Translations under genes and position numbers: made by a program | Notes under the pieces: generated by a model | What the model was told of the DNA's origin: nothing | The model's input: only the letters and a program-made list of their open reading frames with translations | Database searches by the model: none | From: Anaeromyxobacter paludicola | GTDB taxonomy: Bacteria; Myxococcota; Myxococcia; Myxococcales; Anaeromyxobacteraceae | Direction of reading: 5' to 3' | Assembly: GCF_023169965.1 (NCBI RefSeq) | Contig: NZ_AP025592.1 | Coordinates: 2,046,001-2,110,000 of the forward strand | Length of the DNA stretch: 64,000 bases | Shown: positions 14,436 through 29,461 of the stretch, one piece after another | Numbering within the stretch: position 1 is the first letter of the stretch | How the letters are laid out: the number at the start of each line of letters is the position of its first letter

Positions 14436-14846
14436 TCAGCGGTTCCTGCCCGCCGGCGCGTCGGAGCGCTCGCCGCCGCTGGCGGCCTGCTCCGCCTGCA
14501 CGTCGGCCGGCTCGCGCTTGCCCGGGTTCTCCTGGTCGCCGGTCCGCGCCGCGTGGATGGCGTCCACCGACGCCGAGGGCACGCCGTTGTAGCCGGGGCC
14601 CAGGGCCGGATCGCCGGACGCGCGCGGCTCCGCGGCGGCCATGGGAACGCCCTGCGGCGTCCCGTACTCGGTCCCGGTCGCGCCGCTCTTGCCGGTCCGG
14701 GACCCGGCGCCGCTGCCGCCGGCCCAGGCCCCGGAGCCGAAGGATCCCGTGCTCCCCGCGCTCGAGCCGCCGGTCTGGCCCCAGGCCGCCCCCGGGATCG
14801 CCAGGGCCAGCGCGAGCAGCCGGCCGAGCGCACGTCGCCTCGCCAT
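14436..14846 (-). CDS. Secreted Gly/Ser-rich hypothetical protein
   Basis: An ATG preceded by GGAGGTG starts a 136-residue protein with a clear Sec signal peptide ([21 protein letters not shown], cleavage probably after AWG). Residues 25-55 are a low-complexity Gly/Ser/Ala/Thr run ([19 protein letters not shown]), and the remainder is hydrophilic, ending in a Glu/Gln/Ala-rich tail. It has no Cys in the mature part. I do not recognise a family; it looks like a small exported, largely disordered envelope protein. It lies upstream of the SDR gene on the same strand but 62 bases apart. Confidence 0.65.
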
Positions 14847-14902
14847 GTCGCACCTCCGGGGCTTCAGGCTACGCACGCCCGGCGGCCGCGCCAGGGGTGG
14901 AC

Positions 14903-15625: not shown

Positions 15626-16195
15626 CTAGCGGGTCGCGACGGGGGTGCCGTTGGCGAGCTTCTCGCCAGGGCCGCGCAGCTCGGCCCGGCGGTTCTGCTT
15701 CCAGGCGGCCTCGTCGTGCCCGTCGACGGCCGGGTACTCCTCGCCGAACGAGATGGTCTGGACCGCGGCGGGGACGCCGAGGGCGGTGAGGTAGCGCTTC
15801 ACCGACTGGGCGCGCCGCTCGCCGAGGGCGAGGTTGTACTCCTGCGTGCCGCGCTCGTCGCAGTGGCCCTCGACCTCGACCACCGGCAGCTTGCGCGCGC
15901 GGATGCAGTCGGCGACGCCCTGGAGGGCGTGGCGGGCGTCGTCGTTCAGCGTGGCGTCGTCGTAGGAGAAGCTCACCTTCGAGAGGGTGCAGGCGTCCAC
16001 CTTGGCGACCGGCGCCGGGGCCGGCGCCGAGGCCTCGGCCTTGGCGGCGGCGTCGGACTTCCCGACCGGCGCGGTGGCGGCGGGCTTGGCGTCCTTCTCG
16101 GTCAGCTCGCGCTGGGACTTGTTCGCGCCGGCGCAGCCGGCGAGCGCGCCGGAAGAGACGGCGGTGAGGAGCAGCATCAGGGAAACGCGCTTCAT
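15626..16195 (-). CDS. pal: Peptidoglycan-associated lipoprotein Pal (OmpA-like)
   Basis: The 189-residue protein has a lipoprotein signal peptide with lipobox LAGC (MKRVSLMLLL...SSGALAGC), an Ala/Pro/Lys-rich linker, then an OmpA C-terminal domain: FSYDDATLNDDARHALQGVA, VEVEGHCDERGTQEYNLALG and RAQSVKRYLTALGV, including the diaminopimelate-contacting Asp and Arg of the GHxDxRGTxEYN motif. It anchors the outer membrane to peptidoglycan as part of the Tol-Pal system; the other tol genes are not in the window. The ATG at 16195 is where the signal peptide begins, with GGAGG and AGGA upstream. Confidence 0.88.
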   Translation of the reverse strand: MKRVSLMLLLTAVSSGALAGCAGANKSQRELTEKDAKPAATAPVGKSDAAAKAEASAPAPAPVAKVDACTLSKVSFSYDDATLNDDARHALQGVADCIRARKLPVVEVEGHCDERGTQEYNLALGERRAQSVKRYLTALGVPAAVQTISFGEEYPAVDGHDEAAWKQNRRAELRGPGEKLANGTPVATR

Positions 16196-16440
16196 GATGG
16201 TCCTGCCTCCAGTGGCGCCGCGGAATGTCGGCGCAGGGTGACGACCCTCCCTGCAGGAGGGGGGTCCACTCCCTCTGTTCCTCGGTCGGCCGCAGATCTC
16301 TCTCTCGCCCTCCTCTTTTTTTTCGCGGAGCGCGGTCAGGCGGCTGGGGCGGACGGGACCCCGCCCAATGGTTTCAGCCACTTGCAAAGTTCCGCGTCCC
16401 GCGCGAGAGATGGCGCCCGGCGGGGAGAATAGAGGTTGAG

Positions 16441-17175
16441 ATGCAGGAGGACCTCCGGCCGAGCGACGACCTCGACCTCGTGCGCGCCGCGGCCCGCGGC
16501 GACGAGGCGGCGTTCGCGCTGCTCATCGACGACTGCTGGGACGTGATCGCCGGCGAGGTGGTCCGGACGCGCTTCCGCGTGCTCGGCCAGCGGCTCCGGC
16601 GGGACGACGACCCGGTGCGCGACGCCACCGTGGACGTGCTCGCCCGGATCTCCGCGCCGGTCGCGAAGGGGCGCCCCGAGCTCAAGCTGTCGCGCTTCGA
16701 CCCAAGCAAGGCGAACCTCCGCACCTGGCTCCGCAGCGTGGCGCGCCACTGCACCTTCAACCGGATCTCGCAGGAGCTGCGGCGGCACCAGCTGCTCGAG
16801 GCGCTCGAGCGGATCGCCCTCGTCTACCCCGACCCGGACCGGGGGATGGACGAGGAGGACCACCGGCGGATGGTCGAGATGGCCATGGGGCGGCTCGCGC
16901 CGCACCACCGGCAGGTCATCGAGCTCAAGTACTACGCGACCACGCTGGAGCGGGTGGCCGAGGTGATGCGGCTGCCGCCGGCGGTGGTGCTCGCGAAGCT
17001 CGACCTGCGGGCCGACGAGCTCACGCTGCCGCTCCCGATCCGGCAGATGGCGGCCCTGCTCGACGAGACCCCCGAGGCCACCAACTCGCGGCTGGGCGTG
17101 GCGCGCAAGGAGCTGAAGCAGCTCTGCGCCCGGCTGCACTGGGAAGAGACGCATCCGGAGGAGGTGCTGGCATGA
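16441..17175 (+). CDS. Sigma-70 family (ECF-like) RNA polymerase sigma factor with unusual region 4
   Basis: The 244-residue protein resembles ECF sigma factors. Residues 10-110 give a region 2 (LVRAAARGDEAAFALLIDDC, then DATVDVLARI and FDPSKANLRTWLRSVARHCT). Residues 150-235 give a region 4-like segment, which begins as expected (LAPHHRQVIELKYYATTLER) but reaches the recognition-helix-like part (MAALLDETPEATNSRLGVAR) only after about 40 extra residues. ATG 16441 has only a weak purine site. The stop overlaps the next start by 4 bases (ATGA), the first of three such overlaps in this operon. It is probably a regulator of promoter choice; whether it still binds core polymerase is not shown. Confidence 0.75.
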   Translation: MQEDLRPSDDLDLVRAAARGDEAAFALLIDDCWDVIAGEVVRTRFRVLGQRLRRDDDPVRDATVDVLARISAPVAKGRPELKLSRFDPSKANLRTWLRSVARHCTFNRISQELRRHQLLEALERIALVYPDPDRGMDEEDHRRMVEMAMGRLAPHHRQVIELKYYATTLERVAEVMRLPPAVVLAKLDLRADELTLPLPIRQMAALLDETPEATNSRLGVARKELKQLCARLHWEETHPEEVLA

Positions 17176-17495
17176 CCCCGAAGCCCGAGGACCGGCGCGC
17201 GCGCGCCGCCGAGCGGGTCGCGCTGGTGCGCGCCCGCGTCGCCGAGCTGGAGCACCAGCGCGAGGTGCGCCGCCGCCGCAAGCGCGGGCTCGCCGGGGCC
17301 GCCGCGCTCCTGGCCTGCGCGCCGCTCGTCCTGCTCGCCACCCGCGACCGGACCGAGCGGCCCTACGTCGAGATCGTCTCCTCCGGGAAGGTCGAGATCG
17401 AGTACCAGGGGCGCACCCCGGCCATCCAGGTGCACCGCGGGCTGCTCGAGCGGCGCACGGTCCCGCACGCCGAGGTCCGGCGGAGGTCGCCGTGA
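17172..17495 (+). CDS. One-TM membrane protein, possible anti-sigma partner
   Basis: The 107-residue product has a charged cytoplasmic N-terminus of about 40 residues (coiled-coil-like RRARAAERVALVRARVAELE), a single membrane helix near 40-57 (LAGAAALLACAPLVLLA) with Arg/Lys on the inside, and a periplasmic tail of about 45 residues with beta-strand character (VEIVSSGKVEIEYQGRTPAI). It starts inside the stop of the sigma-like gene and its own stop overlaps the next start, so the three are translationally coupled. The topology and position fit a membrane anti-sigma or signal-transmitting protein, but no zinc-binding anti-sigma motif is present. That role is inference. Confidence 0.7.
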   Translation: MTPKPEDRRARAAERVALVRARVAELEHQREVRRRRKRGLAGAAALLACAPLVLLATRDRTERPYVEIVSSGKVEIEYQGRTPAIQVHRGLLERRTVPHAEVRRRSP

Positions 17496-18118
17496 GCGCG
17501 CTCCTCCTCGCCGCCCTCCTCGCCGCCGGCCCGGGGCAGGCCAGGCCCGACGCCGGGGCCCAGGGACCGCTCGTGGTCGGCTCCGAGCTGGTCTTCGCGA
17601 AGGACGCCACGCTCGAGGCCGGGGAGATCGTCTTCCGGCCCGGAGGCCGCATCCGGGTCGCGAACGGCGCCCGGCTCACGCTCAAGGCCCACCGCATCTC
17701 GGCGGAGGACGGCGCGGTCATCGACATCGACGGCAAGGGCGAGGCGGGCGAGCCTGGCAAGGCCGGCGCCCCCTGCCCGGGCTGCCAGGCCCCGGTGCAG
17801 CGCGTCCGGAGCGCCAGCGCCTTCGCCGCGGCGCTGCAGCAGTGCCAGGAGTCGGGCGTCGGCGGCCAGGGCGGCCAGGGCGGCGCCGGGAAGCCGGGCG
17901 CCAGCGTGGAGATCCAGGCCGAGGAGATCCGGGGCCGGGTCCGCTGCGACGTCTCGGGCGGCGAGCCGGGCCGCGGTGGGGCCGGCGGCCCGGGGCTCGT
18001 GCTCGAGCGGCCGTCGCCGGCCGGCGCGCCGAGCCGCACCGCCTGCCCCGCCGGTCCTTCCGGGCCGCCGGGCGCGTTCGGGGCCGACGGCCGCTGCGTG
18101 ATACGCTCGCGTCAGTGA
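17492..18118 (+). CDS. Secreted Gly-rich, collagen-like hypothetical protein
   Basis: The 208-residue protein starts at GTG 17492 with a short signal peptide (SALLLAALLAAGPGQA). Residues 25-80 look like beta-solenoid rungs (LVFAKDATLEAGEIVFRPGG, then IRVANGARLTLKAHRISAED). Residues 80-200 are Gly-rich with collagen-like Gly-x-y stretches (GEAGEPGKAGAPCPGC, GGQGGQGGAGKPG, AGPSGPPGAFGADG) and contain at least six Cys that could form disulfides. It is probably a surface or periplasmic structural protein. Overlapping starts and stops tie it to the genes on both sides. No named family is assigned. Confidence 0.65.
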   Translation: MSALLLAALLAAGPGQARPDAGAQGPLVVGSELVFAKDATLEAGEIVFRPGGRIRVANGARLTLKAHRISAEDGAVIDIDGKGEAGEPGKAGAPCPGCQAPVQRVRSASAFAAALQQCQESGVGGQGGQGGAGKPGASVEIQAEEIRGRVRCDVSGGEPGRGGAGGPGLVLERPSPAGAPSRTACPAGPSGPPGAFGADGRCVIRSRQ

Positions 18119-20178
18119 GCGGAGCGGCGAGGCACGGGCGAGCGCGAGGCGGGGCGGTGGGGCGGGCGGCGCTGGCCGCCCTGGCGCTCGCGGTGTGCGC
18201 AGGGAGCGTGCGGGCCGCCGGCGAGGGGGGCGTCGAGGATGGCAGGGGCGCCGCGACGGACCCGGCCGGCCCCCCGTCGCTCCTCGACCCGGTGGACTGG
18301 TGCCGGCGCGACTCGGCCGGCCGCACCTTCACCCAGCTCCGGGTGCGCGCCGAGTCGATCGTCCGGCGCGGGCTCGACGAGGCCGTGGACGCCTGGCCCG
18401 CCGACGACCTCACCGACCTCGCCTTCGACTGGCTCGGCCCGTTCGCCCGCGACCTCGTGCGGCCCGACGACCGCGGCCGGTTCGAGACCGCGCTCGCGGC
18501 GAGCTGGTTCCGGCTCCGGCGCGAGGGGCCGCTCGAGGACTTCGTCCGGTTCGGCCCCGACGCCTTCCCCGGCTGCGCCGCGCCCGAGGCCGAGCCGGCG
18601 GAGGCCCCGGCCCGCCTCGCCGCCACCGCGGCGCGGGTGGCGCTCGCCGAGCAGCGGCTCCGCGAGCTCCTGGCCCAGGAGTCGCCGGCCCAGCTCGTGG
18701 CGCGGCTGCGCGGCGTCTGCGACGAGGTCCGGGCGGGGCGCGAGCGGGCCGCCCGCGACGCCCGCGCCGCCCAGTCCGCCTGGGAGGCGCTGCACGACCG
18801 CGGCGCGCTCGCGGCGCCGCTCCAGCTCACCGCGCTCCAGTCGGTGCGGGCGAGGCTCGCCGCCCTCGACGCCGTCCCCTTCTGCCAGAAGAACGGCCTC
18901 AAGGGGCTCGCCGCCGAGGCCGCGCTGCTCGACGGCCGCCCGCCCGCGCTGGCGGCCCGCGCCGACGCCTTCCAGGAGGCCCGCGCCCGCGACGTGACGC
19001 GCGCGCTCGCCCTCGCCGCCTTCGACGCGGACGAGGCGCGGCGGCTCCTCTTGCTCCTGCCGGCCGCCGCGAGCGGGCCCGGCGCGGGCGACGACGTCTC
19101 GGAGGTGCAGCGGCTCGGGACCGAGCTGCTCCAGGAGTGGGACGGCCGCGGGCGCCAGCACCTCGCCCGGCTCTGCGACGGCGCGGAGCGGACCGAGCGG
19201 TCCCTCGTGACCGCCCGCCTGCAGGCGCTCGGGACGAAGCTCGCCGCGTCCGAGCCGTTCGTGACCTACGTCGAGGAGCGGACGCTCGGCGAGGAGCGCT
19301 ACGCCGGCGCGGAGCGGGTGTTCGGCGAGGTGAAGGCGGCGGTGCGCGCCCTCGCCGAGCGCGAGATCCTGCCCCGGCTCCGCCTCTCGCCCGAGGAGGC
19401 CCGCGGCGTGCTCGAGGGCATCTCCTCGCTGCAGCTCCTGCGGGCCCGGCCGCTGTTCGCGTCCGACTTCGCCCTCGACCCCGGCTTCCCGCTGCCGCTC
19501 CGGACCCGGGCGTCGCGCCAGGAGTCGCGCCCGGAGGAGGACCCGTTCGCCGACGCCGCCCTCCCCGGCCTGCGCGCGCTCGACGCGCACTTCCGGCCCG
19601 CCGCCCACGGCGAGCCGGCCGGCGTCTACCTGCAGCCGATCCTGCTCCTCGCCCGGGGCGACGAGGTGGAGGAGCTGCGGACGGTGCTCGCCCACGAGGT
19701 GGGCCACCAGCTCGCGCCCCGCACCGGGCGCGGGCCCGGCCCCGACCTGGGGCCGGCCTTCGAGCCGCTCCTCGAGTGCCAGCGGCAGCGGATCCCGATC
19801 GCCTCCGACGAGCGCGCCGCCGAGGTGCTGGCCGACTGGATCGCGAGCCGGCTCGCCGCCGCCCGCGTCGCCGCCGCCCCGCCCGCCGCGCGGGCGCGCC
19901 AGGTGGACGCGGCGCTCGCGCTCGAGTGCCGGCTGCTCGACGCCGAGGGCCCCTTCCTCGCGACCGGCTTCATCGGCCCGCTGGTGGACGACGAGCACCC
20001 GAGCCAGCTCGCGCGCATCAACGAGCTCTTCGGGCAGGACCCGCTCCTGCGCGGCGCCATGGGGCTCGCCCCCGCGCCCTACTGCACGCTCGGCGGCCCC
20101 GGCTCCGCCGAGGAGTCGCTCCGCGCCGCCCGCGCCGCCGGCTTCACCGGGCCCGGGCCGCTCACGGCGGCGCCGTAG
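18115..20178 (+). CDS. Exported HExxH zinc metalloprotein (gluzincin-like)
   Basis: The 687-residue protein begins at GTG 18115 inside the preceding stop. A signal peptide is present (VGRAALAALALAVCAGSVRA). About 480 mostly helical residues follow, then a metallopeptidase signature: HEVGH at 527-531 (from VLAHEVGHQL) and a candidate third ligand Glu570 in E-VLA-D, the ExxxD pattern of gluzincins such as M13. The sequence before HEVGH (AGVYLQPILLLA) also resembles M13 spacing. It should be a periplasmic or surface zinc peptidase. Its substrate might be the co-encoded Gly-rich protein, by operon position only. Family assignment beyond gluzincin is uncertain. Confidence 0.7.
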   Translation: MSGAARHGRARGGAVGRAALAALALAVCAGSVRAAGEGGVEDGRGAATDPAGPPSLLDPVDWCRRDSAGRTFTQLRVRAESIVRRGLDEAVDAWPADDLTDLAFDWLGPFARDLVRPDDRGRFETALAASWFRLRREGPLEDFVRFGPDAFPGCAAPEAEPAEAPARLAATAARVALAEQRLRELLAQESPAQLVARLRGVCDEVRAGRERAARDARAAQSAWEALHDRGALAAPLQLTALQSVRARLAALDAVPFCQKNGLKGLAAEAALLDGRPPALAARADAFQEARARDVTRALALAAFDADEARRLLLLLPAAASGPGAGDDVSEVQRLGTELLQEWDGRGRQHLARLCDGAERTERSLVTARLQALGTKLAASEPFVTYVEERTLGEERYAGAERVFGEVKAAVRALAEREILPRLRLSPEEARGVLEGISSLQLLRARPLFASDFALDPGFPLPLRTRASRQESRPEEDPFADAALPGLRALDAHFRPAAHGEPAGVYLQPILLLARGDEVEELRTVLAHEVGHQLAPRTGRGPGPDLGPAFEPLLECQRQRIPIASDERAAEVLADWIASRLAAARVAAAPPAARARQVDAALALECRLLDAEGPFLATGFIGPLVDDEHPSQLARINELFGQDPLLRGAMGLAPAPYCTLGGPGSAEESLRAARAAGFTGPGPLTAAP

Positions 20179-20193: not shown

Positions 20194-29461
<9,268 letters not shown>

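Follow-up and report, generated by a model that had tools for sequence, protein, structure and literature searches.

The locus described here raises the question of what a sigma-like gene does at the head of an operon whose other members encode a membrane protein and two probable envelope proteins, and of which neighbour controls the sigma. It lies in a 64 kb stretch of DNA, hereafter the window, that is part of the complete 4.59 Mb genome G000 (G000:C1:2046001-2110000). An ORF check placed four genes, A, B, C and D, at window positions 16441-20178, all on the plus strand (Table 1), and recovered every reading frame and all three four-base overlaps listed in the original prediction: ATGA at 17172-17175 between A and B, GTGA at 17492-17495 between B and C, and GTGA at 18115-18118 between C and D. 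The overlaps are thus present, but they weigh less than had been claimed, since a four-base overlap is possible in 7 of the 17 close co-directional gene pairs of the 64 kb window and those of A-B-C-D therefore say little; they show an operon, not an unusual operon.

Table 1. Positions of the operon, its flanking features and the related sigma-kinase loci (plain numbers are window positions; STPK, Ser/Thr kinase).
Feature	Position	Strand	Description
Gene A	16441..17175	+	244 aa, divergent ECF (group IV) sigma factor by sequence
Gene B	17172..17495	+	107 aa, single-pass membrane protein, candidate minimal anti-sigma
Gene C	17492..18118	+	208 aa, GTG start, Gly-rich, probably exported
Gene D	18115..20178	+	687 aa, GTG start, exported, gluzincin-like motifs
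Pal-like OmpA-domain lipoprotein gene	15626..16195	-	189 aa, divergent from A, OmpA PF00691 2.4e-18
Intergenic block CAATGGTTTC-N4-ACTTGCAAAGT	16366..16390	+	Candidate regulatory element, two-species alignment
TrmJ-like RNA methyltransferase gene	20194..20904	-	Convergent with D; right border, outside the unit
Pal-like / short ECF-like sigma / divergent PF07638 sigma + STPK	L090:2590-6476		Complete locus
Pal-like / short ECF-like sigma / divergent PF07638 sigma + STPK	L091:5041-8861		Complete locus
Pal-like / short ECF-like sigma / divergent PF07638 sigma + STPK	L167:2088-5898		Complete locus
Same sigma-STPK locus	L165:5028-8585		Pal-like gene a remnant
Same sigma-STPK locus	L166:5405-9262		Pal-like gene absent

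The proposal that the four genes form one unit is supported by G012, the one further genome of the genus, which keeps the gene order. Its contig, identified by a scan of named genomes as JAJXVM010000203.1 of the MAG Myxococcales bacterium BP5.bin31, carries A, B and C with the same overlaps (89%, 74% and 75% identity, respectively) and stops within the first codons of D, where the GTGA overlap is still present. On the contig that bears the convergent TrmJ-like gene, 56 bases follow this gene before the end; with breaks inside D and just beyond the TrmJ-like gene, a second copy of D very probably lies in the assembly gap. Conservation of the operon is thus conservation in two species of one genus, one of them with most of D in a gap. 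Comparison of the two species (G000 versus G012) gave dN/dS values of 0.17 for A, 0.29 for B and 0.40 for C, indicating purifying selection on all three proteins, and A, B and C are real genes.

Protein A comprises a sigma2 domain (about residues 8-115) and a sigma4 domain (about 148-236). Profile search against NCBIfam matched it to 34 sigma families, and the description of A as sigma-like holds up through TIGR02937 sigma70-ECF (E = 4e-10, 39.6 bits), just under the curated cut-off of 42.9. The Pfam region 2 and region 4 scores of A itself fall below cut-off. Its homologues in G003 and G004 (L090 and L091) exceed the cut-offs of both Sigma70_r2 and Sigma70_r4_2, and a BLAST chain runs from A to the G015 protein and from there to the G003 protein, with E values of about 1e-12 at each step. 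As these relatives pass the cut-offs and are connected to A through the G015 protein, A belongs to the ECF lineage; judged by sequence, it is a divergent ECF (group IV) sigma whose membership is established through its family and is borderline for A itself. PADLOC and PHROGs added nothing useful beyond sigma, and a PDB fold search with the model of A (pLDDT 52.8) gave no significant match.

Two features set A apart. Region 2.3-2.4 (RFDPSKANLRTWLRSVARH) is intact and resembles that of other ECFs; at the DAED position of sigma2.2, A reads PVRD (58-61), the sister protein in G012 SVRD, the G015 protein DVRA, and those of G003, G004 and G023 DVED. This acidic core RNA polymerase motif is common among ECFs without being universal, and members of ECF43, which likewise lack it, still count as ECFs (PMC8999054). 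Its degradation in A could mean that the protein works weakly as a sigma or needs special activation. The second feature is region 4, in which A has two apparent helix-turn-helix (HTH) units, at about 165-187 and 196-236, and its relatives one. The Pfam region 4 profile falls on the first unit, and the second aligns with the recognition helix of the relatives and weakly with DUF746. Helices occur at both places in a low-confidence model of A with one relative (pLDDT 52.8), and an internal alignment of the two units was too weak to decide on duplication.

We then turn to B, whose start overlaps the stop of A by four bases in both species and of which two sequences are known, that of G000 and one other. 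It is predicted to consist of a basic cytoplasmic N-terminus of about 38 residues, a transmembrane segment at about 39-57 and a periplasmic tail of about 50 residues; the single hydrophobic stretch (mean KD 2.05), flanked by a charge of +8 on its N-terminal side, obeys the positive-inside rule and bears out the assignment of B as a one-TM protein. B matched no Pfam or NCBIfam family, nothing in PADLOC or PHROGs, and no PDB chain at E<=10. ECFs are regulated most often by membrane-anchored anti-sigmas, whose genes usually lie next to that of the sigma, and co-transcription of the cognate anti-sigma with positive autoregulation is frequent in ECFs, if no longer defining (PMC8103513). Class I anti-sigmas carry a four-helix ASDI domain averaging about 101 aa and not below 50, with an optional Hx3Cx2C (PMC7406223); B, with a cytoplasmic part of about 38 residues, neither that motif nor a profile match, does not belong there. 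Below 50 aa, a cytoplasmic anti-sigma domain is regarded as a possible class II member; in the complex of this class, two helices of CnrY wrap around CnrH (PMC7406223). B fits this form in size, transmembrane segment and position, and shows no sequence similarity to it. Position, size and topology thus make B the natural candidate, and most likely, for a minimal, CnrY-sized membrane anti-sigma of A. Of the earlier suggestion that B pairs with the sigma, the part resting on these three properties remains plausible, and homology support, with no family match, is absent.

Taken together, A-B-C-D could well be an envelope-signalling operon of the ECF sigma/membrane anti-sigma kind with two envelope products, a tentative reading that strikes us as quite possible if short of probable. 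A short N-terminal helix of B would bind A at the membrane, as its position, size and topology suggest, and the periplasmic tail of B may sense or relay an envelope signal. Release by B would allow A to transcribe its own operon and probably also the divergent Pal-like gene, and C and D would be envelope proteins made in step with A.

An AAC/CGT promoter upstream of the sigma's own operon is a hallmark of ECFs and is not universal. When the intergenic alignment of the two species was inspected by eye, no conserved AAC-N16-17-CGT (ECF -35/-10) was seen towards A. The region between the Pal-like gene and A does contain the block CAATGGTTTC-N4-ACTTGCAAAGT, identical in both species except for the N4 and with a partly palindromic ACTTGCAAAGT; tested as a regulon signature, it has a single genomic copy. 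By eye, the block was also rejected as a sigma-54 promoter, as its GG-GC spacing is 12, not 10.

The distribution of the genes was searched in 195 myxobacterial genomes, of which 24 represent the host family. D was found in 1/195 (G000 alone), C in 3/195, the third being G049, and A, as a single query, in 3/195. These counts do not support the idea that the four genes are conserved together across myxobacteria. The original prediction had named their separation elsewhere as grounds for refutation: beyond the genus they were indeed not found together, whereas within it A-B-C and the start of D do so in G012. Collections of genome contigs, viral contigs and plasmids, at the search sensitivity applied, yielded no relatives of D; the plasmids likewise yielded none of C. 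The homologue of C in G049 (L018:1834-2625), a genome of another family of the order, is lipoprotein-like, has the same C-x2-C Cys pattern and is not linked to any sigma gene. Bar this one distant and unlinked homologue of C, the genes B, C and D are genus-specific. A profile search with relatives extended the family of A to 8/195 genomes, in four genera of one taxonomic family. Matches to A at E values of 1e-3 to 1e-5 (L005-L012) were rejected as orthologues from a comparable operon: each turned out to be either an ordinary ECF or an unrelated ORF.

What accompanies the sigma gene in these eight genomes is a different set of neighbours. The Pal-like gene adjoins it in six (G000, G012, G003, G004, G023 and G015, in the last one gene away), is reduced in G022 to a 60-codon remnant (L165:5028-5207) beside a sigma gene, second sigma and kinase that look intact, and is not found beside the sigma gene of G020. 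A PF07638-type ECF sigma and a Ser/Thr kinase (STPK) lie beside the sigma gene in six as well (G003, G004, G022, G023, G020 and G015), assignments that were tested on the G003 and G015 copies and extended to the other genomes by BLAST to these. B-C-D never occurs beside the sigma family outside the genus. By sequence comparison, the conserved association is therefore that of the sigma with a Pal-like lipoprotein and a kinase module, of which B-C-D is a genus-level variant, and the sigma/Pal pair is older than its association with B-C-D. The gene with the best comparative support as a partner of A is thus the Pal-like lipoprotein gene, which lies outside the interval first proposed. The genome also carries, at another place, a Tol-Pal-type gene whose product has a long Cys-rich N-terminus; the Pal-like gene beside A is a separate, second copy. 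We found no description of the Pal-like/sigma/PF07638 sigma/STPK locus in the literature searched.

Several further features were seen around these genes. Two genes to the left of the Pal-like gene, window positions 14436-14876 encode a small exported Gly/Ser-rich protein without a family, which is also present near Pal in G012 (L003:2637-3053). In G015 (L014:3937-12568), the sigma/Pal-like pair stands beside a kinase, an FHA-domain-like protein and a ClpV/ClpB-like ATPase, surroundings that by eye resemble a type VI secretion neighbourhood. A gene resembling a vitamin K epoxide reductase/DsbA fusion follows the kinase in two genomes (L165:8943-10118 and L167:6384-7457, by eye), hinting at a disulfide or envelope theme.

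This conservation lends itself to an alternative in which the functional pair is A with the divergent Pal-like lipoprotein. B-C-D would be genus-specific envelope cargo under the A promoter, B a small accessory membrane protein of C and D instead of an anti-sigma, and A would be controlled by its own expression or by an unlinked kinase. The Pal-like gene is kept in 6/8 genomes, with a remnant in one, the ECF-sigma and STPK in 6/8, and B-C-D never outside the genus; moreover, STPK-activated ECFs of group ECF43 lack DAED (PMC8999054), and A and the G015 protein have lost its charge pattern. However, a tblastn search of the 64 kb window of G000 with a related STPK was negative, most kinase-adjacent relatives of A keep DVED, and the size, topology and place of B fit a membrane anti-sigma, so that we regard this alternative as rather unlikely. 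Under the anti-sigma reading, the B-C-D unit would have been grafted onto an older sigma-Pal locus, and since it occupies the place of the ECF-sigma and STPK pair, this suggests that kinase input was exchanged for membrane anti-sigma input. In its fullest form, one genus would have replaced STPK input by a minimal membrane anti-sigma while acquiring a second region-4 HTH, reversing the charge of the core-binding motif and recruiting an exported Cys/Gly-rich protein and a metalloprotease. One ECF pathway would thereby have moved from control by phosphorylation to tethering at the membrane, a scenario that we consider doubtful as a whole.

The intact region 2.3-2.4, the dN/dS of 0.17 and the clear assignment of A to sigma by NCBIfam argue against A being sigma-like in fold and not a promoter-specific sigma, that is, a decoy, or a regulator that binds DNA, assembled from sigma2/sigma4 and carrying an additional HTH; this is improbable despite the sub-threshold Pfam scores of A, its PVRD in place of DAED and its apparent second HTH, on which such a reading would draw.

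The two remaining genes encode proteins that, like B, belong to families without described function. C consists of 19% Gly, with collagen-like Gly stretches, and contains six Cys, including a CxxC, all conserved in the sister species, in agreement with its description as Gly-rich with several Cys. The signal peptide of C lacks a basic n-region and is weak (best KD over 19 residues 1.12), but export of C is likely, and its distant homologue in G049 looks like a lipoprotein. C and the G049 homologue may represent a small family of exported Gly-rich Cys proteins. D, predicted to be mostly helical, bears what by eye is a credible signal peptide, together with the motifs HEVGH (527-531), EVLAD (570-574) and DEHP...RIN (626-636), as expected of the exported HExxH protein that had been proposed. 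Its C-terminal fragment scored 21.4 bits against the M48 profile (cut-off 20.3) over 22 residues round HExxH only, and alignments to local M13 and M48 sets were not significant beyond the HExxH stretch. An M13 assignment, hinted at by PAG-x-x-LQP, ExxAD and the H...RIN spacing, was unsupported by hhalign and hmmsearch against 19 M13 sequences, and the structure model of D alone (pLDDT 40.6) was unusable for fold. D thus appears to be a gluzincin-like metalloprotein of unassigned family, its motifs evident and its activity putative; that it cleaves C or B is speculation. Site-1 proteases such as DegS and PrsW belong to other families. Given this difference, the motif-limited profile matches and the unusable model, it is hardly likely that C or B is processed by D (site-1-type anti-sigma cleavage) and that the operon holds the whole cascade, even though D shares the operon, carries the metal-site motifs HEVGH and EVLAD, and proteolysis is the most frequent route of release for membrane anti-sigmas (PMC8103513).

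If the anti-sigma reading is true, one sigma family in related genera would be governed by two inputs, a kinase module and a small membrane protein, allowing a direct comparison of how ECF control changes. The association of the sigma with a Pal-like gene points to a function in the homeostasis of outer membrane and peptidoglycan in Anaeromyxobacter-type bacteria.

Among known systems, D shares HExxH, ExxAD and the later H-x5-R-I motif with the M48/M13 gluzincins and differs in that its M48 match spans 22 residues and its M13/M48 alignments are confined to motifs. The divergent gene encodes an OmpA-domain lipoprotein like the Pal/OmpA lipoproteins, but as a second, non-Tol-Pal copy. With the STPK-linked ECFs (ECF43, ECF59, ECF60 and related groups), A has in common that its relatives adjoin an STPK and a PF07638-type sigma and that it lacks the DAED charges; unlike them, it has no adjacent kinase and so falls outside the STPK adjacency that marks ECF43-like sigmas. 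Its PVRD contains no Ser/Thr, the sister SVRD has one, and most kinase-linked relatives keep DVED. From the ECF/anti-sigma operons such as RpoE-RseA and CnrH-CnrY, the locus differs in the degraded DAED motif and apparent extra HTH of A, in a B without a detectable anti-sigma domain, and in C and D, which match no known partner; it resembles them in its order of sigma gene, single-TM gene and envelope genes, and B shares the minimal class II size of CnrY.
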